NCBI GenBank assembly: GCA_002690445.1
Contig: NZER01000242.1
Coordinates: 1-58,561 of the forward strand
Reading direction: 5' to 3'
Source: Candidatus Pacearchaeota archaeon
Lineage (GTDB): Archaea; Nanoarchaeota; Nanoarchaeia; Pacearchaeales; GW2011-AR1
Length of the DNA: 58,561 bases
Every line of letters begins with the position of its first letter. Positions within the stretch are counted from its first letter, which is position 1. Below the pieces are notes generated by a model. It saw nothing but the letters and a program-made list of their open reading frames with translations, ran no database searches and had not been told where the DNA came from. Position numbers and translations under genes: made by a program. Shown here in pieces: positions 3,413-55,368 of the stretch.

Positions 3413-4632
3413 GGTCCCGTGACCTCTCCGAGCACAAGGTCCTCTTGGGCGTCGATGTTCTCACAGCTGCCCGCGCTCGGGTTGCCCGACTCTTCGACGA
3501 CTTCGACCACCTCTATGTGGCCCTGAGTGGGGGGAAGGACAGCGGTGTCCTTTTCTGGCTCGCTTACGAGGAGGCTCGGAAGAGGGGGCAGGACCTCCAC
3601 GTCCTCTGCGTAGACCTGGAGGGCCAGTACACGCTCACGATGGACTTCGTGAGGCGCTGCTTCTCCCTCCCTGGAGTCACGGGGCACTGGGTTTGCTTGC
3701 CTCTCAACCTTCGCAACTCCGTCTCCCAGCACCAGCCCTTCTGGCTCTGCTGGAACCCGGATGTGCAGGACCAATGGATCCGAGAGCTGCCCCCCCACCC
3801 TGCCGTGGTGTCCGACGAGAAGTTCTTTCCTTTCTTTCGGAGGGGGATGGAGTTCGAGGAGTTCGTCCCCGAGTACGGGCAATGGACTGCTGACCGAGAA
3901 GGAAGGACGGCCTGCCTGATTGCGATCCGCTCCGACGAGAGTCTCAACCGCTACCGGACCGTGAAGAGTGAAGTGAAGGAGACTTGGGAGGGGCTCTCCT
4001 GGACCACGAGGCTCTCGGACACCCTCTACAACGCCTTCCCGATCTACGACTGGCACACTGAGGACGTCTGGGCCGCCAACGGCCGCTTCGAGTGGGACTA
4101 CAACAGGGTCTACGACTTGATGCACTTGGCTCGGGTGCCCCTCTCCAAGATGCGGCTCTGCCAGCCCTACGGGGACGACCAGCGTCAAGGACTCTGGCTC
4201 TACAAGATCTTGGAGCCAGACACTTGGGCGAAGGTCGTAGCGCGGGTTCAGGGGGCTAACTTCGGGCAGCGCCACTCCACCAAGAAGACCCTCGGGCACA
4301 TCAAGGTGATCCTGCCCGAAGGCCACACCTGGAAGAGCTACAGCCGCTTCATGCTCTCGACCATGCCGCCTCCTCTTGCACGGCACTACAAGGCCAAGAT
4401 CGACCGCTTCGTCTGGTGGTATCGGGAGAAGGAGGGGATCGACCCCCTCCCTGATGCGGCTGATCCAAAGCTGGAGGCGTCTCGGAAGGCTGGGTCCTGG
4501 CGGCGAATCGCGAAGGTCCTGGTCAAGAACGACTACTGGTGCAAGGGCCTGGGCTTTGCTCAGACTAGGAAAGAGCGAGATCGCCAGCTTGCTCTAGCCC
4601 TGGAGTTCATGCTGAAGGAGGGGACCCCATGA
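3409..4632 (+). CDS. IbrA-like PAPS-reductase family (PP-loop) protein
   Basis: This is an adenine-nucleotide alpha-hydrolase-like protein of 407 residues with the PP-loop SGGKDS at about residues 40-45 and an IbrA/DUF3440-like C-terminus (LCQPYGDDQRQGLWLYKI, then the HTWKSYSRFMLS region). The family activates a substrate with ATP; the substrate of phage copies is unknown. The GTG at 3409 overlaps the HNH stop and is preceded by GGAAG. The frame is open back to 2881, but that part only shadows the HNH gene. The gene is coupled by ATGA overlap to the ParB-like gene, the same pairing as E. coli IbrA/IbrB. Roles in DNA modification or transcription control are inference. Confidence 0.8.
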   Translation: MRSRDLSEHKVLLGVDVLTAARARVARLFDDFDHLYVALSGGKDSGVLFWLAYEEARKRGQDLHVLCVDLEGQYTLTMDFVRRCFSLPGVTGHWVCLPLNLRNSVSQHQPFWLCWNPDVQDQWIRELPPHPAVVSDEKFFPFFRRGMEFEEFVPEYGQWTADREGRTACLIAIRSDESLNRYRTVKSEVKETWEGLSWTTRLSDTLYNAFPIYDWHTEDVWAANGRFEWDYNRVYDLMHLARVPLSKMRLCQPYGDDQRQGLWLYKILEPDTWAKVVARVQGANFGQRHSTKKTLGHIKVILPEGHTWKSYSRFMLSTMPPPLARHYKAKIDRFVWWYREKEGIDPLPDAADPKLEASRKAGSWRRIAKVLVKNDYWCKGLGFAQTRKERDRQLALALEFMLKEGTP

Positions 4633-5207
4633 GTGACCTGAAGGGCCGCGTCGAGCAGTACAACCGAGCCGTGCAAGAAGCTGCCTCTCTGATCCCCGAG
4701 ATCGCCGGAAAGCACCCAGCTCTCTGCCCCCAGCTTGTCCCTCTGCAGAGTGTCAAGGGGAACGAGTACAACCCCAACAAGGTCGCTCCTCCCGAGATGA
4801 GGCTCCTTCAGCACTCGATCTCCAGAGACGGCCTCACGATGGCTGTTGTGGTGGCCCCTGATCCCTCCTCTGAGGGCTGCGTCGTGGTGGACGGCTTCCA
4901 TCGGACTACCATCGCCAAGACGAACAGCGGGGTTCGGGAGTCGCTTCGGGGCTACCTTCCAGTAGTGAAGCTGGACAAGGGCGTGGCGGACCTCATGGCT
5001 TCCACTGTGCGGCACAACATGGCCAGGGGCTCTCACCAAGTCGAACTGAGCGCCAAGCTGGTTGGGACCTTGACCAAGCATCACTGGACCAACGAGCGCA
5101 TCGGGGAAGAGTTGGGGATGGACCCGGACGAGGTGCTGAGAATGAAGCAGGTCACGGGCCTCGCCTCGATCTTCGCGGACAAGGAGTTCTCGGAGGCGTG
5201 GGAGTAG
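4629..5207 (+). CDS. IbrB-like ParB-domain protein
   Basis: This 192-residue protein has a ParB/sulfiredoxin-type nucleotide-binding motif (VVVDGFHRTTIAK) after a PxxVKGNEYNPNKV segment, and a C-terminal helix-turn-helix-like region (TNERIGEELGMDPDEVLRMK). The start overlaps the IbrA-like stop as ATGA, so the two are translationally coupled and probably act together, as IbrA and IbrB do. Partitioning is unlikely because there is no ParA nearby. A late-type promoter begins just after its stop. Confidence 0.75.
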   Translation: MSDLKGRVEQYNRAVQEAASLIPEIAGKHPALCPQLVPLQSVKGNEYNPNKVAPPEMRLLQHSISRDGLTMAVVVAPDPSSEGCVVVDGFHRTTIAKTNSGVRESLRGYLPVVKLDKGVADLMASTVRHNMARGSHQVELSAKLVGTLTKHHWTNERIGEELGMDPDEVLRMKQVTGLASIFADKEFSEAWE

Positions 5208-36900: not shown

Positions 36901-39900
36901 TCAGACCTCCTTCCAAGTGTGGCCCACGTCTGCACTGGCGCTGAAGACGACGCCAGGGAGGTTGGGGTGGATCTGATTCATGCACTCCTCCAAGAGGCCC
37001 GCGACCTCTTGGGCTGCGTCTTCTGGGCACTCCACGACGATGCTGTCGTGGCACTGGTTGATGATCCCCGTGCCAGGCCCCCACCGATGCAGAGGGATGG
37101 CTTCGTGGAGCTGTATGAGAGCCTTGTTCATCAGAGCAGCAGCGCTGGATTGGACAGGAAAATTGACGATCTGGCAGGGGTCCTCCCCGTCTAGGAAGTC
37201 CCTCCGCCTGCCTCCCACGGGCTCACGAAGGAAGTCCTGGGCCCGAAAGGTCTGGATCTCCTTCGCCCAGCCCGACTCGAACTCGGGGGCCCCCTTCAGC
37301 CAGTTGTCCCGCATCTTTCGGTACCTCCGAAGAGGCATCAAGGCGTAGGGAAGGTCTGTAGTCCCATCGTTTCGGGGCTTCCCGTCAGGCCTCTTGGCTG
37401 GGATCTCAGTGGAGCACATCGCCTTGTGCCCGGTCTCCACGGAGCCCATGTACTGGCTGAGGTACTGGACGACCTTCGCCAGGTTCCTCATCTCTGTCGC
37501 ATCTGAGGAAGCGCCCTTGAGGAAGACCCCGTTCTTGTCGAAGCACTTGCCTACTAGCTTCCCGGGCCGTGCAAACTGCTCGGGTGAGAGGCCAGCGGCG
37601 CTGCAGAACGCGGCACCGAAGCACGAGAAGGCCGTCATCGAGTGAGGGTCCTTCCCCTCGATGAAGGCGTCGAGGTACAGCCGAACCTTCCACAAGGCAG
37701 CAGCGATACGCAGCTCCAGCTGGTCCATGTCGGCCCCGACGAGAACGTGCCCGGGGGCTGCCGTGACCATGCCCCTCATCGCCGATGGAAAGTTCATGGC
37801 ATTGATGGGCTTGGAGCTGGACAATCGGCCGGTGACAGGAATATGAGCTGACCAGCCGGGGTGCATCCTCCCTGTCAAGGGGTTCACGATGCCCTGCTTC
37901 TTCTCGCCGTACTTCTCGCGGGTCTCCTTATCGACCCAATCATCGTCCTCGTCCCAGCCGAGGTCCGCTTCCATGTCCCAGGGGCGAAGCTTTACAACGT
38001 AGGTGCCAAGGACCTTCAGCGCCTTGCGGTACCGACGGAGGAGCTTGATCAGCTCCCTCTGGTCCTTCGGGACGGTCTTCAAGGTCAGGAGAGTGCGAAG
38101 GATGAGGTCTCCGGTCGAGCGATCCCCGGAGGAGGTCATCGTGTCCTTCTCCTTGAGGTCCGTCGCGTCGATATGCGAGTCGAGACCCCACTTTTCGAAG
38201 AGCACGTCGCGAAGCTGGTAGACCGAGCCCGGATTGAACTTGGGCATCCCCAGGAAGTCGCGAATGTCGGTCAGGAGCTTGTAGCGGACCGCGAGAAGTT
38301 TCTTCTCCTCCTTCAGCCGCTTCTCCTGATCCACGTACATCCCCACGGTGTGCATGTCGCCACAGATCTGCTGCATCTTCTGGTCGGACTGCCAGACCCC
38401 CACCTGGTCTCGAAGGGCAACCTGCTCCACCAGGGGAGGAAGGACACGGGCCGTAATGGCGACGTCTTTGACGCAGTTGTGGACGCACCCGTAGGGTGTG
38501 AAGAAGTTGTGGTTGTCCTCCACGTCGATGCAGTAGCGGCGCTGCGCCTTGTACTTCTGCGTCCTCTTCGATTCGTCCGACCCCCCCGGCTCATGCACGT
38601 AGGCCTCAACGCTGACTACGGTTCGGCAGGAGGCTCTCGCCCCCACACGGACCGGAACGTAGTCCACCTCGGCGTAGTGAGGGTAGTCTCGAAGCCGAGG
38701 GAGCTTGTATCGAGCACCCGAAGGGACGAAGGGGGCGATTTCCAAGGCCAGCTTGCGGGAGGCGATCGTCCCCAGCCGGATCACGTTGTCTGCCCCGGCA
38801 CAGGTCGAGCCGTAGCGCTCCCGGAACCACCCCACAGCCGCGTCGATATCCTCCCGAGGAAAGCCTTGAAGGTTGAGCACGAGGGTCTCGTCCCGCACGA
38901 GACGTCCCCCCCTCGACCCGTTGTTCTGGGGGTCCGGCTGGTACTTCTGTACGCACCCATCGTCGACGAGCAGCCACGCAAGGCCACGCGGCCCCAACTG
39001 GTCCAGGGCCTCCAGGGGAAGACGCTTCTTGCCGTCTCGGTAGACGAGGTCGTAGAGGCGCTTGAGCTGCCGCAGGTTCCTCGACCGAAAGGGTGCAGCC
39101 AGGCCTGCTCTCCCAGAGCGACCGTTGATCACGACGTCACGACCCGGCTGCACAGGGAGTGCCAGGAGCCACGGCAGCTCGGAGAGCTTCCAGGCCGTGA
39201 AGCCTGACTTCTGCGAGTGGGCTCCGCCCAGGGCAGCAGAACGAGCCTCTTGCGGCCGATCCCGGAAGGCAGGAGAGAGCACCAGGCTGCTGTCGCCTAG
39301 CACAGTCCCAAGGATGGCCTTCCTCTCGTCCTCTGAGAGCTGGTGCTCCCTGTCGAAGAGCAGGTCCCCGGGCTTCAGGTCTTGGGCCTCCACCTCTCCC
39401 CCAGGTCCGATGAGGCGGTGGTCAGGCGTGCAGATGAGCCCCCGGTGCGCGTCCCGCTGACCTGCGACCTTCACCCGGAGCCAAGTGACCTCGGGGTCCT
39501 TGTTGTAGTGCCAGCCTGTGACCTGCTTCCACTCCAGAAGACCGTCTACTTGGGCTGAAAGGACCTTCCCGGCCCACCTGTTGCGGACGATCTCCTCGAT
39601 GGGCTTGTTCCCCTCCTCAGTCACGACAGGAGTGCCCTCGAACAGGCAGTACTCGTGAAGCTCTTCGTCAGACTCACCCCCCAGAGCCAACTTGTTCCCT
39701 TCACGGCCGCATTTCCAGCTCGGAGCGTCCGTGTAGAGGCTGGCCACGAAGCTCAGGCTGTGAGGCAGCTCCGACTCGACGTTGCGGTGCAGGAGCATCG
39801 TGTCCAGGACTGGCTGTGGGTCGACCCCCATCTGGTTCTGGAGCACCAAGCGGTCGTAGTAGCCCGCGTTGTGCCCAGCCTTGACGATGTTCGGGTCCGA

Positions 39901-40926
39901 GAAGAACTGGACGAGGAGGGCTCCGACAGTGAACGCCTCGATGCCGGTGTAGTAGTCCAGGAAGAGCCCCTCCTGGTCCTTCGGTCGGGTGTTGGAGCGG
40001 AAGCCTACCGACATGACCTCATCTCCGTCTCCGATGGCGATGCACCGGATGTGAGCCGTGAGGCACTCGATCCCGTCCGTCTCGATGTCGAAGGTGTAGA
40101 TGCGGTCCGGGTCCGAGAGGAACCGCCGGAGGGTGTCCGGTCCTGGGTTGTAAACAGCTTTCGGAGGGACCCACTCCGTGAGCCCTCGAAACCACTTGAC
40201 CGCCTTGAGCACGTCGTTGCGGAAGGCCCGAGTCCACCGAGGCATCCTCAAGACGAAAGCGGGGTGGATGGTAGGCATGACCCGGATCGTGTAGGTGCGC
40301 GTGATCCACTCCTCAAAGGCGTTCCACCACTCCGTGCTGCCGGCCCCGTAGGTGGCCTCGACCCACGGCTCCGCCGCGTCGAACTCACCACCCAGGTCGG
40401 CGCGAGAGGCTACGCCGGCAGGAAGTCGAGTCAGCTCCATCAGGCCGCCCCGTACCGCCAGGATGCTGGACTGTGCCCCACTGACCGCTGTGGTCCCGGT
40501 CTTCCCGAGCGTGATGAAGTCCTTGAAGGGAGTCAGCTCGTTGTCCAGTCGGGGCCGACAGCACTCCAGGGGGGTCTTGATCAGCTCAGCCGGACGGTCC
40601 TCCTCCTTGGCCGCCTTCGCCTCTTGCTTGTTCCACCTGCTGATCTTCATCAGCAGCTTCTTCAGCTCATTGTTGGGAGGTCTGCAATTAATGGCATTTG
40701 ACAAGTGCAGGTCGTTCCTGCGGAGCCCAGCCATGCGCGCGGCCTTCATGAACTCGTTGCCGGAAGGCCCAACGAGAGGGCGGCCGTACTTCTCCTCTTG
40801 CTCGCCCGGAGCTTCAGCCACCACAGCGATCTTGGCGGACGGGTAGGTCTCGGGGGGAACGACCTTACAGCCTTCCAGAGGGCACTCAGAGCAGAGCGCC
40901 CCGTGCGTCCTGGGGTCGTAGCTCAC
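36901..40926 (-). CDS. UDG-like/DNA polymerase I fusion interrupted by an intein
   Basis: This encodes 1341 residues including an intein (427-817). Residues 1-250 match the family 4 uracil-DNA glycosylase-like N-terminus of SPO1-type polymerases: CSECPLEGC, AEAPGEQEEKYGRPLVGPSG and NAINCRPP. The 3'-5' exonuclease follows: Exo I FDIETDG, Exo II GHNAGYYD and Exo III Y/CVKD, the last split by the intein. The polymerase domain has motif A DMDQLELRIAA, a motif B region KVVQYLSQYMG and motif C QCHDSIVV. It starts at a GTG. It is the replicative polymerase of the element. A dyad operator copy lies inside its coding sequence. Confidence 0.9.
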   Translation of the reverse strand: MSYDPRTHGALCSECPLEGCKVVPPETYPSAKIAVVAEAPGEQEEKYGRPLVGPSGNEFMKAARMAGLRRNDLHLSNAINCRPPNNELKKLLMKISRWNKQEAKAAKEEDRPAELIKTPLECCRPRLDNELTPFKDFITLGKTGTTAVSGAQSSILAVRGGLMELTRLPAGVASRADLGGEFDAAEPWVEATYGAGSTEWWNAFEEWITRTYTIRVMPTIHPAFVLRMPRWTRAFRNDVLKAVKWFRGLTEWVPPKAVYNPGPDTLRRFLSDPDRIYTFDIETDGIECLTAHIRCIAIGDGDEVMSVGFRSNTRPKDQEGLFLDYYTGIEAFTVGALLVQFFSDPNIVKAGHNAGYYDRLVLQNQMGVDPQPVLDTMLLHRNVESELPHSLSFVASLYTDAPSWKCGREGNKLALGGESDEELHEYCLFEGTPVVTEEGNKPIEEIVRNRWAGKVLSAQVDGLLEWKQVTGWHYNKDPEVTWLRVKVAGQRDAHRGLICTPDHRLIGPGGEVEAQDLKPGDLLFDREHQLSEDERKAILGTVLGDSSLVLSPAFRDRPQEARSAALGGAHSQKSGFTAWKLSELPWLLALPVQPGRDVVINGRSGRAGLAAPFRSRNLRQLKRLYDLVYRDGKKRLPLEALDQLGPRGLAWLLVDDGCVQKYQPDPQNNGSRGGRLVRDETLVLNLQGFPREDIDAAVGWFRERYGSTCAGADNVIRLGTIASRKLALEIAPFVPSGARYKLPRLRDYPHYAEVDYVPVRVGARASCRTVVSVEAYVHEPGGSDESKRTQKYKAQRRYCIDVEDNHNFFTPYGCVHNCVKDVAITARVLPPLVEQVALRDQVGVWQSDQKMQQICGDMHTVGMYVDQEKRLKEEKKLLAVRYKLLTDIRDFLGMPKFNPGSVYQLRDVLFEKWGLDSHIDATDLKEKDTMTSSGDRSTGDLILRTLLTLKTVPKDQRELIKLLRRYRKALKVLGTYVVKLRPWDMEADLGWDEDDDWVDKETREKYGEKKQGIVNPLTGRMHPGWSAHIPVTGRLSSSKPINAMNFPSAMRGMVTAAPGHVLVGADMDQLELRIAAALWKVRLYLDAFIEGKDPHSMTAFSCFGAAFCSAAGLSPEQFARPGKLVGKCFDKNGVFLKGASSDATEMRNLAKVVQYLSQYMGSVETGHKAMCSTEIPAKRPDGKPRNDGTTDLPYALMPLRRYRKMRDNWLKGAPEFESGWAKEIQTFRAQDFLREPVGGRRRDFLDGEDPCQIVNFPVQSSAAALMNKALIQLHEAIPLHRWGPGTGIINQCHDSIVVECPEDAAQEVAGLLEECMNQIHPNLPGVVFSASADVGHTWKEV
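38476..39648 (-). other. LAGLIDADG intein in the DNA polymerase (Exo III site)
   Basis: The intein spans 391 residues from Cys427 (CLFEGTPVV) to Asn817 (FFTPYGCVHN), with Cys as the +1 residue. Block B is ICTPDHRL, and two LAGLIDADG-like helices are visible (AILGTVLGDSS and LAWLLVDDG). It splits Exo III between Tyr and Cys of YCVKD, so splicing is needed for proofreading. Confidence 0.9.
40692..40703 (-). promoter_or_regulatory. Dyad operator copy inside the polymerase gene
   Basis: TGGCA-TT-TGACA matches the dyad exactly. It lies in codons for LSNAINC that use A/T-ending codons, unusual for this GC-rich gene. Confidence 0.4.
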
Positions 40927-50519: not shown

Positions 50520-50990
50520 TCATGGCTTCGCTCCTGTAAGCTCGGCCAAGTCTGCCCGTGCTCGCTCTAGAGAGCGCTGTAGCTTCTTCACAGCCTTCGC
50601 ATCGTTCCAGCCGTTCTTGACCATCTCTCTGAGTTGCCCCCCGAGGTGGTCCACGGTGCCCTGAAGAGCCTGGATGCGGCGGGCGCGGGCCACTTGGATA
50701 GACAGCCCCCGAACCTGCTTCTCCAGCTCCTGGATCTCAGGGTCCACCTTGCACGCTCCCTTGTAGGCATCCCAGGCTCTCTTGCCCTTCTTGCACCGCG
50801 CCCCGTGATTCGCCGTGGGGCGGCCGGCTGGCCTCTCAGGGCTCATCGCCACCAGGGTGACGCAGGGGTCCCCCGGCTCTGCTCCACACTTGGAGCACCA
50901 AGACTCCAGGATGAAGTTGTCGAGCGTCTCCATCTCGTGGGCCTGCATGAGCCACCGGAGAGGGTCGTTCCAAGACTTCGGCCAGCCCAT
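50520..50990 (-). CDS. Zinc-finger and coiled-coil phage protein
   Basis: The 156-residue product (ATG at 50990, GGAAGG upstream, TAATG overlap with the HNH stop) has a CSKCGAEPGDPC finger, a second partial finger (ARCKKGKRAW) and a coiled-coil C-terminus. Such fingers are common in small phage DNA-binding proteins. Function unknown. Confidence 0.55.
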   Translation of the reverse strand: MGWPKSWNDPLRWLMQAHEMETLDNFILESWCSKCGAEPGDPCVTLVAMSPERPAGRPTANHGARCKKGKRAWDAYKGACKVDPEIQELEKQVRGLSIQVARARRIQALQGTVDHLGGQLREMVKNGWNDAKAVKKLQRSLERARADLAELTGAKP

Positions 50991-51739
50991 TATCCCTTCC
51001 TTCTCCCCCTCTGGTGCTTCTCCTTGAGCGGACCACCCACATGGGCCCAGGTTTGGCCCAAGAGGAGTCTGCTGAGGGCACTCACCGAGACGCCATGCTC
51101 CTTCGCGAAGGCCGTGAGCGTGCATCCCCCCTCAGCATAGGCCTCTCGGATGCGGAGCACCTTCTCATCGGTCAGCTTTGCCGTTCCCGACCGCTCCCCC
51201 CGACAGACAGACCCTGAGGGCATCTTAAACCCACGGCGGATCTTCTCTGGATGCCGAGCCGTCCAGTGGTCTTCCCCGCGAGCCAGGGCCCACGGCTTGG
51301 TCCGCGAGCCATGTCGCTCCCCCCGAGCCAGGCGGTCTGGTCGAGTTCGGGCACCGTTGCGGTCCCCTCGCGCCAACTTTTCCGGGTTGGTCCTTGCGTA
51401 GTGGTCATCCCCGGAGGGGACGTAGCCCCGGCCTTTGGCCCACTTGTCCTTCATGTTGTCCGCGTAGGTGCCCAGCTTGAGGTGAGCCGGATTGACACAA
51501 GGAGGGTTGTCGCAGGTGTGCATGATGCAGGGCCTCTTCCCTTCGATCTCGGAAGGCATCGGACCGTTCTCCAAGATCCAGACCACCTGATGAGCAGTGC
51601 GGGATCGGCTCTGGTAGGAAAGACAGCCGTAGCCTCCAGAAATGGTGCTCCCGACCCACGGCCAGCACTCGTCGGGACCCCCCTGCTGGGACCGCTCTCG
51701 GATCACCTGCCTCACCTCTTCGTCTGTGCGCCGCTTCAT
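50990..51739 (-). CDS. HNH homing endonuclease with RP-x-LARGE repeats
   Basis: This 249-residue endonuclease has an HNH_3 core (CIMHTCDNPPCVNPAHLKLGT) followed by four 15-residue repeats of the form ARTxPxxLARGExx (about residues 110-170), a short finger-like CRGERSG and a C-terminal HTH (TLTAFAKEHGVSVSALSRLL). The ATG at 51739 has AGGA upstream. It sits between the helicase and the zinc-finger gene and is probably selfish. Confidence 0.85.
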   Translation of the reverse strand: MKRRTDEEVRQVIRERSQQGGPDECWPWVGSTISGGYGCLSYQSRSRTAHQVVWILENGPMPSEIEGKRPCIMHTCDNPPCVNPAHLKLGTYADNMKDKWAKGRGYVPSGDDHYARTNPEKLARGDRNGARTRPDRLARGERHGSRTKPWALARGEDHWTARHPEKIRRGFKMPSGSVCRGERSGTAKLTDEKVLRIREAYAEGGCTLTAFAKEHGVSVSALSRLLLGQTWAHVGGPLKEKHQRGRRKG

Positions 51740-51771
51740 CAAATCATCCTAAGACCTATTCCCCCACAAGA

Positions 51772-54700
51772 CTACGTGAAATCTAGGTCTGCGAGGACGG
51801 AAGCGGCAAAATCTTCGTCGCTCTCGTTGGGGTCGAGACCCGCCAGCACGTCCTTCGCCTCGCCCAGCTCCGTGTCTCGGGCGACCTTCTCCACCGCAGG
51901 GAGCTTGTCGATGAGGATGGCAGCCATGTGCTCGTCTACCGTGCCCTCGGCGATGATGTAGTAGATGATCACGGGCCTCTTCGTGCTAGCCCGGTGGAAG
52001 CGGCCCTCGGCCTGACGAAGGACCCCCGGCGTGTAGGGGATCATCACGAAGAGAGCTGCGTCAGTGTCATCTATGTTGATCGATTCCCCGAAAGCTTGCA
52101 TGGTCCCGACGAGCACACAGGAGCCCCGGTAGGCCATGTAGTCCTGAACGATCTGGTCGCGGACCTTCTGGCTCTGCCCCCCGTGAGCGGCCCAGACCTT
52201 GATGTTGCCTTTCTTCACTGCAGAACAAGAGCTGACGCTCTTCCCCAGCTTCTCGCAGTCCCTGCGGCGGCCTGTGAAGCAGACGACCTTCTGACCGCTT
52301 CGGACGTGGTCCTCCACGATCCCGATGACTGCGGTCCTCTTGCGAGAAGCCGCCTCTGCCAAACTGACCTCCAGGAGAGCTGTAGCCCCCCTCTTTGCCG
52401 CATCCTTGCGCTCCTTCGCAAACCCCCCGGCAGGCCGGCACTGGTCTTCAGGAGCGACGTAGACGGACTGCCTCCTCTTCGGAGGGAGATGAGCGTGAGT
52501 CTCGGCGTAGGTCAAGACGTGAGCGACGGGCCCCAGCCGGAGGTTCAGCTCTTCGAGGTTGGACGCTCCGGTCGTGTCATACCCCCCGTAGATTCCCGGC
52601 TTCCTGTTCGCGTGGCGGTTCTCCCACGTAGTCTTGTTCCCCCACGAGTTCGGCTCGACGATGTCCAGCTGGCTCCACAGGTCCCGCACGCGGTCCTGAA
52701 TGGGCGTGGCCGTTGTCCCTACCCTTTTGGAGACGCAGCGAGCCAGATCTGCAGCGGCTGAGGCTCGGTTGAGGACCGGAAGAAACATCTTCCTCCCTTC
52801 TTCGGTCTGCTTGACGAAGCCCCCCTTCTTCTTGGCCTCCCTCTCCTGCTCCCGAAAGGCCTTGGCGATCTGCTCCACTGAGCCGTCAGGCTCGGAAATA
52901 GGCAGTACTTCCCAGCGCTTGGACCCTTTTCCCTGGTGACAGTTGGAAACCAAGACCCCCTCTACGAAGTAGTTGTGGTTCCCCTCAACCTCAAGATCGT
53001 AGAGGTGATCTTCTTCACCACTCCCCCCAAGTCCTCCTGAACCTGCCGGTTCGTGAACCTCAACACCGAAAACCCGAGAGCCTGAAGCACTGCATCCTTC
53101 TTCCTGTCCTGGGCCCGGCGGGAGGGGGAGTTGTGAGACCCCCCGTCGATCTCCACCGCCAGCTTGAGGTGGAGGTCCCCCAGATCCACCTTGTAGTGGA
53201 ACGGAGGAGGGGGGGAGAACCGAGAACGGAGACTGGGGGGCACCCGCACCGTAAAGGGGCGGAGCCCCGTCTCGGCCGCCACCAGACCCTCGCACTCCGT
53301 CAAGCCAGTACCGTTCCCTCCCCTCACTTTGGGAGAGTGCCCCATCGCTTTCAAGATCCGACTCACCTTCTCCCTTGTAGAGGGGTCGTGCATGGGATTG
53401 GACTCTCTCATCCTCCTCCGAGAAGCCTCGATGACTTCCGGCCGAGAAAGGGGGTTCTCCCCTGACTCTTGCCGGGAAGCCTGTACCGCCCTCCCCCCAC
53501 GCCTGCAAGCCTCCAAGCCCCGCTCCGTCTGGACCCTCCACTTGGCGGAGCAGGAGGGCCCACAGAACCTCTTCGTGCGAGCTTGAGGAGCCTCGAACTC
53601 CTTGCGGCACCAGGCACACTTGCGCCTCTCCACCACCTGCCGCTTCGCCCCCCGATGGGCTGCCCCTCCACAGCTTCGAGAGCAGAACCTCGGATTCGGC
53701 CTGTCCGCTCTCCGTTTCCGCTGGAAGACCTCCCCGCAGTGGCAGCAAGTGATGGTGAGCACGGAGGAGCCCCGCTTGGACATAGCCTTCCTCCAAGGTC
53801 CAGACTTCGTGGTTGGGGGTGCAGATGAACCCACCTTCTTCATGGCTTACCCTGATGAGGAGCCTCCCGCTACCCGAAGACTTGATGGAGCGAAGAACTC
53901 CCTTCCACTCCAGCTGACCCCCAGGCTGGGATCGAGAGAGGACCTCATCTCCAACCTCGATCTCCTTGATGGGCCTCTCCCCCTCCCGAGTCCTGACCTT
54001 CTGAGAGCCGGGGAAGCACTCATCAACAAGCAGAGCCCCCGCCGCAGACTTCTTCAAGACAGGCAAGTGGGTAACCAGGGCCTCCCAACCCACGATCACT
54101 ACAGCCCGACGGCAGTGAGCCGAGCACTCGTCCAGGTAGTCCTTCAAGCTGGAGCCCTTCTTCACGAGAACCCCGTGCTTGGCCTTTGCAGCCTTCCACT
54201 CCTCCGCGACGAGAGCCGCCTTGCCCAGCTTGGGCATCCTCTTCTTGAAGAAGTCCACCCAGGTCTCTCCCTGAACGGTCATCAAACCTCGACGCTCCCC
54301 CTCCGGTCGGATCACGTAGGGCTTGATGTATGTGAACCTCTCGATCTCTCGGGCGAACTGCAGCCGGGCGGAAGCTCGGGTCACCACGATGACCCCTCCA
54401 GGAGCCGCCAGGGAGGCCAGAAGCCCCGTGAGAGTCTTGCCGCTGTTGTGGACGACGAAGCCGTTGGCAACGTAGTTGTTGTGCGGAGACTTCATGGTCA
54501 AGTCGAAGGTGGGCTTCAGCCCGAGCCGTTCGATGCTCTCAACCACGTCCTCCTCGGCGTTGATAGCCGCGTTCTTCCCTCCTCGGACGACAAGCGTGTC
54601 CCCCTCCTTCAAGTCCTTCAGCTCCTTCCAACCTCCCTCTGGGGCCAAGAAGCGGTGCTCGGCAGTGGCCTCTACCGCCCGGCCTCCCCGGGTGTGGAGT

Positions 54701-55296
54701 CGAAAGACCTCCTTCTCTCCCGTAGGGAAGGCTGCTTCCACTTCGTTGAGCAAAATGTAGCCGCCCTTGAGGCACTGAACTCGGGTCGGGATCGCCGGAT
54801 CCCAGCGGTAGCCCTTGCCCCACCGCCCAGACTCCCCTCCATTGAAGGAGTGAACCAGCTTCGACAGGGTAGTCTGGAAGCTCTTTCCAGCCCGGTTGAC
54901 TGTGAGAAGAGTGTCTCCAGCCAAGCACCCCGTGGAATGCCAGTAGTGGACCCCGGCCCGCGTCCACCCGAAGGCCACCGCGTCCTTCTGGTACTCGGTG
55001 AGGAAGCCGTCGAGCACGAAGCTCCTGACCTCCTTCCCTTCCCGAAGCAGGCTCTCCACTTCTGCCCAGGAGGTCTCGGGGGGAGGTCGGACTTGCCACT
55101 TAGCGAAGGCCAGCTGGACCCCGTGTAGCTCGGCCAGGGCAGCAACAACCTTCACGGCGTTCCCTGGGACGTTCCACCCGGCTCCTCGCGGCTTGACTCC
55201 GGGGATCTTCGCCAGCTCAACTTGGAAGACCTCGACCCCCGGATGGGGCTTGAACCCCACATGAGCATAGGGGGCCATGATCTGCCAGTTGTTCAC
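51772..55296 (-). CDS. SNF2-type helicase carrying two inteins
   Basis: This encodes 1174 residues with two inteins (124-284 and 427-785). The extein is a SNF2-like superfamily 2 helicase of about 650 residues: Walker A HSTG/SGKT, Walker B DE/CH, TATPIQDR (motif III), and a C-terminal lobe with FTGRRRDCEKLG, TMQAFGESINI and the motif VI region GRFHRASTKRP. The GTG at 55296 has GGGAG six bases upstream. Both ATPase motifs are split, so two splicing events are needed for activity. A second gene is nested in the larger intein. Confidence 0.9.
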   Translation of the reverse strand: MNNWQIMAPYAHVGFKPHPGVEVFQVELAKIPGVKPRGAGWNVPGNAVKVVAALAELHGVQLAFAKWQVRPPPETSWAEVESLLREGKEVRSFVLDGFLTEYQKDAVAFGWTRAGVHYWHSTGCLAGDTLLTVNRAGKSFQTTLSKLVHSFNGGESGRWGKGYRWDPAIPTRVQCLKGGYILLNEVEAAFPTGEKEVFRLHTRGGRAVEATAEHRFLAPEGGWKELKDLKEGDTLVVRGGKNAAINAEEDVVESIERLGLKPTFDLTMKSPHNNYVANGFVVHNSGKTLTGLLASLAAPGGVIVVTRASARLQFAREIERFTYIKPYVIRPEGERRGLMTVQGETWVDFFKKRMPKLGKAALVAEEWKAAKAKHGVLVKKGSSLKDYLDECSAHCRRAVVIVGWEALVTHLPVLKKSAAGALLVDECFPGSQKVRTREGERPIKEIEVGDEVLSRSQPGGQLEWKGVLRSIKSSGSGRLLIRVSHEEGGFICTPNHEVWTLEEGYVQAGLLRAHHHLLPLRGGLPAETESGQAESEVLLSKLWRGSPSGGEAAGGGEAQVCLVPQGVRGSSSSHEEVLWALLLRQVEGPDGAGLGGLQAWGEGGTGFPARVRGEPPFSAGSHRGFSEEDERVQSHARPLYKGEGESDLESDGALSQSEGRERYWLDGVRGSGGGRDGAPPLYGAGAPQSPFSVLPPSSVPLQGGSGGPPPQAGGGDRRGVSQLPLPPGPGQEEGCSASGSRVFGVEVHEPAGSGGLGGSGEEDHLYDLEVEGNHNYFVEGVLVSNCHQGKGSKRWEVLPISEPDGSVEQIAKAFREQEREAKKKGGFVKQTEEGRKMFLPVLNRASAAADLARCVSKRVGTTATPIQDRVRDLWSQLDIVEPNSWGNKTTWENRHANRKPGIYGGYDTTGASNLEELNLRLGPVAHVLTYAETHAHLPPKRRQSVYVAPEDQCRPAGGFAKERKDAAKRGATALLEVSLAEAASRKRTAVIGIVEDHVRSGQKVVCFTGRRRDCEKLGKSVSSCSAVKKGNIKVWAAHGGQSQKVRDQIVQDYMAYRGSCVLVGTMQAFGESINIDDTDAALFVMIPYTPGVLRQAEGRFHRASTKRPVIIYYIIAEGTVDEHMAAILIDKLPAVEKVARDTELGEAKDVLAGLDPNESDEDFAASVLADLDFT
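52942..54018 (-). other. Intein 2 of the helicase (Walker B) with out-of-frame insert
   Basis: The 359-residue intein runs from Cys427 (CFPGSQKVRTREGERP) to Asn785 (YFVEGVLVSN), with Cys as the +1 residue. Block B is ICTPNHEVW and block F/G is YDLEVEGNHNYFVEG. Between them about 270 residues are low-complexity Ser, Gly, Glu and Pro, because that DNA encodes an endonuclease in another frame. It splits the DECH box. Confidence 0.9.
52962..53783 (-). CDS. EDxHD/DUF559-type homing endonuclease nested out of frame in intein 2
   Basis: The 273-residue product lies wholly inside intein 2, in the +1 frame relative to it. The ATG at 53783 has GGAGG six bases upstream and a TAG stop at 52962. It has two zinc-finger-like units (CCHCGEVF ... 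CSRSC and CAWCRKEF ... CGPSC), a NUMOD3-like basic stretch (ESNPMHDPSTREKVSRIL) and a Vsr/DUF559 fold: AVEIDGGSH, then DRKKDAVLQALGFSVLRFTNRQV. These are the E-D-x-H-D residues of EDxHD homing nucleases. It would be translated on its own. Confidence 0.85.
   Translation of the reverse strand: MSKRGSSVLTITCCHCGEVFQRKRRADRPNPRFCSRSCGGAAHRGAKRQVVERRKCAWCRKEFEAPQARTKRFCGPSCSAKWRVQTERGLEACRRGGRAVQASRQESGENPLSRPEVIEASRRRMRESNPMHDPSTREKVSRILKAMGHSPKVRGGNGTGLTECEGLVAAETGLRPFTVRVPPSLRSRFSPPPPFHYKVDLGDLHLKLAVEIDGGSHNSPSRRAQDRKKDAVLQALGFSVLRFTNRQVQEDLGGVVKKITSTILRLRGTTTTS
54445..54927 (-). other. Mini-intein 1 of the helicase (Walker A)
   Basis: This 161-residue intein runs from Cys124 (CLAGDTLLTVNRAGK) to Asn284 (YVANGFVVHN), with Ser as the +1 residue. 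Block B is VEATAEHRF. It has no endonuclease domain. It splits the Walker A sequence STG/SGKT. Confidence 0.9.
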
Positions 55297-55331
55297 CTGC
55301 TGCTCCCTTCCAGCCCTCGCGGGGCCCCACG

Positions 55332-55368
55332 TGCCAGATGACATACCCAACCGAGTGCCATCTGTCCA
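55332..55368 (-). promoter_or_regulatory. Early-type promoter with double operator (helicase)
   Basis: TGGACA (55368-55363), 17 bases, TATGTC (55345-55340). Two dyad copies, TGCCATCTGTCC (55356-55367) and TGCCAGATGACA (55332-55343), cover the -35 and the -10. Confidence 0.6.

Follow-up and report, generated by a model that had tools for sequence, protein, structure and literature searches.

In textbook inteins the homing nuclease is a domain of the spliced protein. The locus described here raises the question of whether a nuclease gene lying within an intein in a different reading frame is a genuine gene, and whether it could serve that intein as its homing endonuclease. It lies in the window, by which we mean the whole stretch of 58,561 nucleotides that was analysed, a phage-like contig with matches to an integrase, an endolysin, a DNA polymerase and a Sak4-like protein. 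An earlier note had described one of the two inteins of a helicase as open in two frames between blocks B and F, and all the elements it named, from the open reading frame and its coordinates to the motifs, are present. The helicase gene and its inteins are arranged as follows (carets here and below mark intein boundaries or insertion sites).

51772..55350, minus strand: open reading frame of an SNF2-type helicase, 1192 amino acids from a TTG start, with Pfam SNF2-rel_dom and Helicase_C matches and two inteins
54445..54927, minus strand: intein 1, short (161 residues), at the P-loop (..TG^C...HN^SGKT)
52942..54018, minus strand: intein 2, 359 residues, inserted at DE^CHQ of the Walker B/DExH motif and matched by the intein_Nterm and intein_Cterm models
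53734..54018, minus strand: N-terminal splicing region of intein 2 (residues 1-95), with Cys1 and the TPNH block B
53083..53733, minus strand: overprinted linker of intein 2 (residues 96-312), in the intein frame of low confidence, mostly without secondary structure and with almost no excess conservation
53035..53079, minus strand: dual-coded intein beta strand and the part that follows it (residues ~314-328), overlapping nuclease LGFSVLRFTNRQVQE
52942..53016, minus strand: C-terminal splicing region of intein 2 (blocks F/G, EEDHLYDLEVEGNHNYFVEGVLVSN), overlapped by the nuclease C-terminus down to 52962

Intein 2 has a cysteine at position 1, TPNH in block B, a terminal asparagine and a cysteine at +1, as inteins do; its penultimate residue is serine and not the usual histidine, as in 19 of the 89 non-redundant related loci introduced below (histidine in 69, glycine in one). 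In a structural model of modest overall confidence (pTM 0.49) a Hint domain is built from the N-terminal ~95 residues and the C-terminal strands, ~215 residues of low confidence lying between them. The block-mean predicted pLDDT is 91-97 through residue 90 and the structures most similar to the model are mini-inteins and further Hint domains; the two halves are predicted to form a Hint fold. Pfam gave no nuclease match in the intein frame, and the linker there is modelled with low confidence; the frame of intein 1, compared with the nuclease families, gave no match either. Intein 2 resembles conventional homing inteins, for example those with LAGLIDADG nucleases, in its Hint domain, in the nuclease between blocks B and F, in the conserved site and in its presence or absence among alleles. 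Unlike in those inteins, the nuclease is encoded by a gene of its own at +1 and does not form part of the intein polypeptide, and the intein's own frame holds a low-confidence linker. Elsewhere in the window, the open reading frame of a family A DNA polymerase (36901-40926) has an in-frame LAGLIDADG_2 domain and an intein block-B-like sequence, and is probably a conventional homing intein on the same contig as the nested one. Directly downstream of the helicase lies an HNH_3 plus HTH-like gene (50990-51742), possibly a free-standing homing endonuclease.

The gene read in the other frame of intein 2 has these parts.

52962..53783, minus strand: EDxHD/DUF559-type nuclease gene in the +1 frame of intein 2, ATG to TAG, 273 amino acids
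53790..53794, minus strand: GGAGG Shine-Dalgarno motif, written in intein codons for LEEG
53664..53750, minus strand: nuclease zinc-finger unit 1 (C13/C16...C34/C38), kept in Vibrio phage relatives and missing from several others
53544..53627, minus strand: nuclease zinc-finger unit 2 (C56/C59...C74/C78), each cysteine in at least 90% of 56 sequences
53034..53204, minus strand: core of the nuclease catalytic domain (YKVD...EIDGGSH...D..K...GFSVLRFTN)

The identity of the product, first recognised from the sequence alone, is borne out by a profile search (Pfam DUF559, E=1.9e-13), and D200, E211, D213, H217, D226 and K229 are invariant in an alignment of 56 nuclease sequences. The model made from this alignment has a mean pLDDT of 90.5 and a modest pTM of 0.56, and its top Foldseek matches are the endonuclease-like protein 3hrl and I-Bth0305I (3r3p). 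For the C-terminal domain, 3hrl gives a profile E-value of 2.6e-13 and a Foldseek E-value of 1.9e-3, the best although weak, and I-Bth0305I gives a profile E-value of 0.0023 and a Foldseek probability of 1.00 (E 0.034). The catalytic domain is thus related to that of I-Bth0305I and other EDxHD/Vsr-like homing endonucleases of introns or free-standing genes; unlike in that group, the host element is an intein and the nuclease has N-terminal zinc-finger units. Both of the zinc-finger units named in the earlier note are present, and the coordinates uphold its claim that the ribosome binding site, start and stop all lie inside the intein: the ATG occupies 53781-53783, 6 nt from the GGAGG, and the TAG 52962-52964. 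A further in-frame ATG upstream at 53843 has no Shine-Dalgarno motif, which makes 53783 the likelier start. A scan for promoters and terminators found none, and no promoter-like site near the nuclease gene. The end of the gene is dual-coded, specifying the most conserved strand and the C-terminal helix of the nuclease and, in the other frame, the intein strand before block F and block F itself; the overlap with blocks F and G that had been noticed is real and takes in this strand as well.

Based on these features and on the comparisons that follow, we propose, with a probability of about 0.88, that intein 2 carries a complete EDxHD-type (DUF559) nuclease gene at +1 that is translated separately and acts as its homing endonuclease.

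Is this layout peculiar to the window? A tblastn search of 50,697 phage records gave 55 with a nuclease match, and among the 19 plasmid records that tblastn turned up, coverage of the query stayed below 80% throughout; a viral scan started from the single window nuclease found nothing. Four Vibrio phage loci (L001-L004) have, without exception, the nuclease at +1 of a helicase intein that sits at a DE^CHH site and is open throughout. Their nucleases are 32-34% identical to that of the window, their GC content is 46-50%, their helicase belongs to a different family from the window's and their annotation mentions the helicase only. Three mycobacteriophage matches (L005-L007) are remote and lie outside any intein. 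Profile scans of viral and genome collections, each limited to at most the best 80 loci, brought the number of loci to 186, or 187 with the window, some contigs occurring more than once. Each intein half was searched for on its own among stop-to-stop fragments, and a locus with a closed intein frame would therefore have been detected. In 115 of the 187 both halves lie in one open frame with the nuclease at +1, and loci with both halves in one frame, the nuclease at +1 and the intein frame closed number none (open, 115/115). In 11 others only the N half was recognised, and in all 11 the frame is open to an HN^S C-terminus. The remainder comprises three loci with the nuclease in frame and one with an in-frame N half (L020-L023), two that are not open, their N half at +1 and their C half in a different frame (L024, L025), one in which only the C half was recognised (L135) and 54 without recognised halves, one of which (L126) proved on inspection to be nested as well and truncated where its contig ends. 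Relatives with the nuclease in the intein frame, by which the earlier note proposed to check its reading, thus amount to four of 187, remote homologues on similar contigs, against 115 at +1.

The possibility that sequencing or assembly indels have shifted an in-frame nuclease out of its frame could account for one isolated case, and the in-frame remote relatives do exist; as the identical offset and the open second frame recur in phage isolates and in many independent assemblies, its probability is negligible. The 115 loci yield non-redundant sets of 89 at less than 90% nuclease identity and 56 at less than 50%, and together with the 11 N-only loci they yield 100 at less than 90%. Among the 89, Cys1 is found in all, the insertion site is DE(x0-4)^C in 88, the +1 residue is cysteine in 86 and serine in three, and TxxH is present in 82. 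Among the host proteins that match Pfam families are those of the SNF2, ResIII/DEAD and clamp-loader types. Nested inteins are also seen in bacterial assemblies, among them Desmonostoc (L119), Azospirillum (L117), Longilinea (L110) and other bacterial contigs. The nested layout is an old and widespread arrangement and not one local to the phage of the window.

An open second frame over a nuclease gene could in principle arise by chance, and we therefore counted intein-frame stops after shuffling synonymous codons within each nuclease. For the window nuclease (254 profile-matched codons) 8.5 stops are expected on average and the frame was open in none of 1000 shuffles. Over the nucleases of the 89 loci the intein frame has 0 stops where 811 are expected, whereas the third frame, open in none, has 1346 against 1262. 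Although the 89 were drawn from a class defined as open, this selection removed no locus, because no two-sided +1 locus was closed. The avoidance is visible in codon choice, as two-fold codons standing before AA, AG or GA codons take C 694 times and T never, compared with 1164 and 1580 elsewhere. Twelve further loci (the 11 N-only loci and L126) again have 0 intein-frame stops, with 79.2 expected. The corresponding +1-type frame has 32 stops (32.2 expected) in the in-frame relative L020, 30 (26.9) in the control L124, 31 (29.5) and 2 (6.7) in the free-standing L017 and L138, and 122 (159.9) in 46 short free DUF559 genes; a mild deficit of such stops is generic among DUF559 genes, and their complete absence is not. 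Chance as the cause of the open intein frame is excluded, ruled out by 0 against 811 stops in the 89 loci.

The same counts bear on a reading in which the open frame is accidental and the intein is split, its halves being separate proteins around a free-standing nuclease gene. Dassa et al. are said to have described in 2009 fractured genes and split inteins with EDxHD genes between the halves. What that reported arrangement and ours have in common is an EDxHD-family gene between two intein halves, and two of our loci (L024, L025) show the split layout: the related nuclease is a separate gene between the halves, the N half stops and the C half lies in another frame. Here, unlike in split inteins, a single frame spans both halves and the nuclease gene, intein 2 being one open frame and its halves not on separate ORFs. 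With no stops where 811 (89 loci) and 79.2 (12 more) are expected, and with all 115 two-sided +1 loci open, we consider a split intein very improbable.

How the nuclease would be translated is a separate matter. A start codon near the nuclease N-terminus is found in 89/89 loci, the best candidate being ATG in 72, and a Shine-Dalgarno motif of at least 4 nt precedes the candidate start in 68. Motifs of at least 5 nt stand before 38 of 160 N-terminal ATGs, compared with 26 of 538 internal ATGs and 3 of 107 ATGs in other frames. A programmed +1 frameshift that fuses the nuclease to the N-terminal intein half, leaving it without a start of its own, would fit the offset of +1 in 115/115 two-sided nested loci, as one recoding rule would produce it, and also the 21 of 89 loci without a motif of at least 4 nt. 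We regard such frameshifting as unlikely in view of the start codon in every locus, the enrichment of Shine-Dalgarno motifs at those ATGs and the distance over which the nuclease frame is open ahead of the matched domain, which varies from 1 to 114 codons across loci. More likely the nuclease is produced as a protein of its own, which would spread the intein independently of its splicing.

Selection differs between the two frames along the intein. Over the nuclease core the pooled dNN/dSN of four independent pairs is 0.13, purifying selection on the +1 product such as the earlier note had looked for, and the pooled intein-frame dNN/dNS is 0.61, ranging from 0.41 to 2.13 by pair set. In the intein N domain the pooled intein-frame ratio is 0.26, with 0.84 for the nuclease frame as control. 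We further compared intein-frame conservation in the 56 sequences with a null in which the nuclease protein is fixed and stops are avoided, judging it from nuclease residue 55 onward, earlier residues being too gapped. The mean z is 0.16, 0.61 and 0.21 for nuclease residues 55-109, 110-159 and 160-229, and 5.6 and 6.3 for residues 230-249 and 250-272, with peaks of up to 25.8 at the intein strand RV..VE and of 22.0 at the block F tyrosine. Conservation of the intein frame beyond what the nuclease imposes is seen almost exclusively in the C-terminal splicing part. Common descent could contribute to this excess; the linker serves as an internal control. The linker is hardly a folded domain in its own right with both frames functional over their full length. 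Its length, its presence in nearly all nested loci and the pooled ratio of 0.61, below 1, would suit such a domain; since the three mean z values over the linker are low, with two columns above 4, and its predicted confidence is low, we give this idea very little weight. The ~215-residue linker appears to be selected mainly to stay open, and the overprinted linker of the earlier note does behave, by stop counts, model and conservation, as filler required to stay open. The first observation is confirmed in full and the core of its interpretation is supported.

The helicase gene of the Vibrio phage locus L002 matches 116 Vibrio phage records, and six of the matches, 60 of which were listed, were examined. 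Two of these (234P10 and 1.024.O) have an intact DECHH site without an intein. In the other four (K389, K459, PS65A.1 and 13VV501A) the site of the L002 intein is occupied by an intein of 143-150 residues that lacks a nuclease, so that one Vibrio phage site shows the empty, the mini-intein and the nested state. The Vibrio mini-inteins could be independent arrivals instead of nuclease losses. In PS65A.1 (L187) and 13VV501A (L191), and also in L274, the same host gene carries an additional intein-like insertion close to its P-loop.

A scan that was seeded by the intein N domains of nested loci, and was therefore blind to the nuclease, returned a +1 nuclease match in 76 of its best 80 loci, no EDxHD-type match in three and one locus cut by the contig end; given the seeding from nested loci and the repeated contigs, which overlap the earlier ones, 76/80 should not be read as a frequency in the population. 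Shortened forms account for five of the 76. Two (L200, L218) are without much of the nuclease, and three (L216, L233, L256) are inteins of 142-146 residues in which the +1 nuclease is reduced to about its last 40 codons; these three are apparently leftovers of nuclease deletion. Retention of the last ~40 nuclease codons in them is expected if the intein needs those codons.

In a tree with 31 of 62 inner branches open and the bootstrap not settled, L017 and L138, both free-standing, are placed beside relatives of the nested kind (96/81 and 99/91), which suggests escape from the nested state; as the origin of the layout, invasion of a mini-intein and another route both fit the tree. In L017 (4174-5400) the free-standing nuclease lies directly upstream of a helicase whose frame is interrupted near the DE/HH motif, possibly by an assembly error or as a scar of cutting. 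Nuclease distances correlate with intein distances (Mantel r 0.50, null maximum 0.13) and with extein distances (0.54, null maximum 0.10), and with r so similar for the two, joint transfer is not separated from vertical descent.

The architecture, its conservation, the pattern of selection and the allelic states can be read directly from the sequences, and from them we infer that the nuclease is translated from an internal start, that it cuts and homes, that the intein splices, and in which direction the following cycle runs. The host-frame protein would splice itself out as a normal intein does, its halves joined by a long disordered linker. This linker is the nuclease gene read in another frame, where selection acts mainly against stop codons. 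The nuclease, translated from its internal start, would cut an allele with uninterrupted Walker B codons, and repair of the cut allele would copy in the whole intein. Later deletion of the nuclease would leave a mini-intein.

A second system came to light through one of the three loci without an EDxHD-type match. In L268 the large subunit of a terminase contains an intein of 309 residues, and the +2 frame of this intein holds a nuclease (4282-4875) that matches HNH_3 at 3.7e-18. The same +2 layout is seen in three viral contigs (L273-L275) and in the isolate phages TJE1 (L276), Highwayman (L277) and LS06-2018-MD07 (L278), which were chosen because the nuclease match fell in the terminase gene and whose annotation mentions terminase only. 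A fourth viral-contig locus belongs to a contig already counted. Over the nucleases of these seven loci there are 0 host-frame stops with 15.1 expected, and the third frame is closed; single loci are not all significant, the probability of no stop ranging from 0.0003 or less to 0.30. All seven nucleases match HNH_3 and have Cys-rich tails. For every one of the seven host ORFs, one or more intein or Hint models score above their curated cut-offs, and six of the ORFs, L273 being the exception, match a terminase model. L279 of Sphaerotilus phage SN1, the eighth relative examined, is free-standing.

Out-of-frame nucleases have been met before outside inteins. PMC3943268, in the text accessible to us, speaks of intein nucleases as translated free-standing from an intron or fused with the intein. 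The accessible part of PMC11855218 describes the ShiLan insertion, an HNH nuclease out of frame in a methylase gene, in the third frame and without splicing motifs, which its authors regard as neither an intein nor an intron, and PMC12613952, likewise seen in part, announces a genome in which an HNH lies out of frame within a methylase. These two were the nearest matches in the literature searched, to which bioRxiv and most subscription papers do not belong and in whose accessible text no intein with a nuclease in a different frame is described. Judged by the same part of PMC11855218, ShiLan is like the window in that the nuclease is hidden out of frame and the host gene stays open, and unlike it in that ShiLan has an HNH nuclease in the third frame and no splicing domain, where the window has a Hint intein with a DUF559/EDxHD-type nuclease at +1. 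The HNH terminase-type inteins share features of ShiLan, as described there, and of the EDxHD nested inteins.

We think it fairly probable that overprinted homing inteins are a third widespread intein architecture besides the in-frame and the split one, an overlapping gene pair in which the nuclease is freed from splicing and C-terminal codons lock the two genes together, with at least two origins, one EDxHD-type at +1 in the Walker B sites of many NTPases and the other HNH at +2 in phage terminase inteins. With splicing and homing laid down as two overlapping genes, each could evolve or decay alone, except in the shared C-terminal stretch. Empty site, nested, shortened, nuclease remnant, free-standing and split are the states seen of the proposed intein life cycle, and the loci form a large natural data set for the evolution of overlapping genes. 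The arrangement explains some of the long featureless stretches within phage ORFs, and it exposes unannotated nuclease genes in the seven isolate-phage loci with a nested nuclease that were examined.
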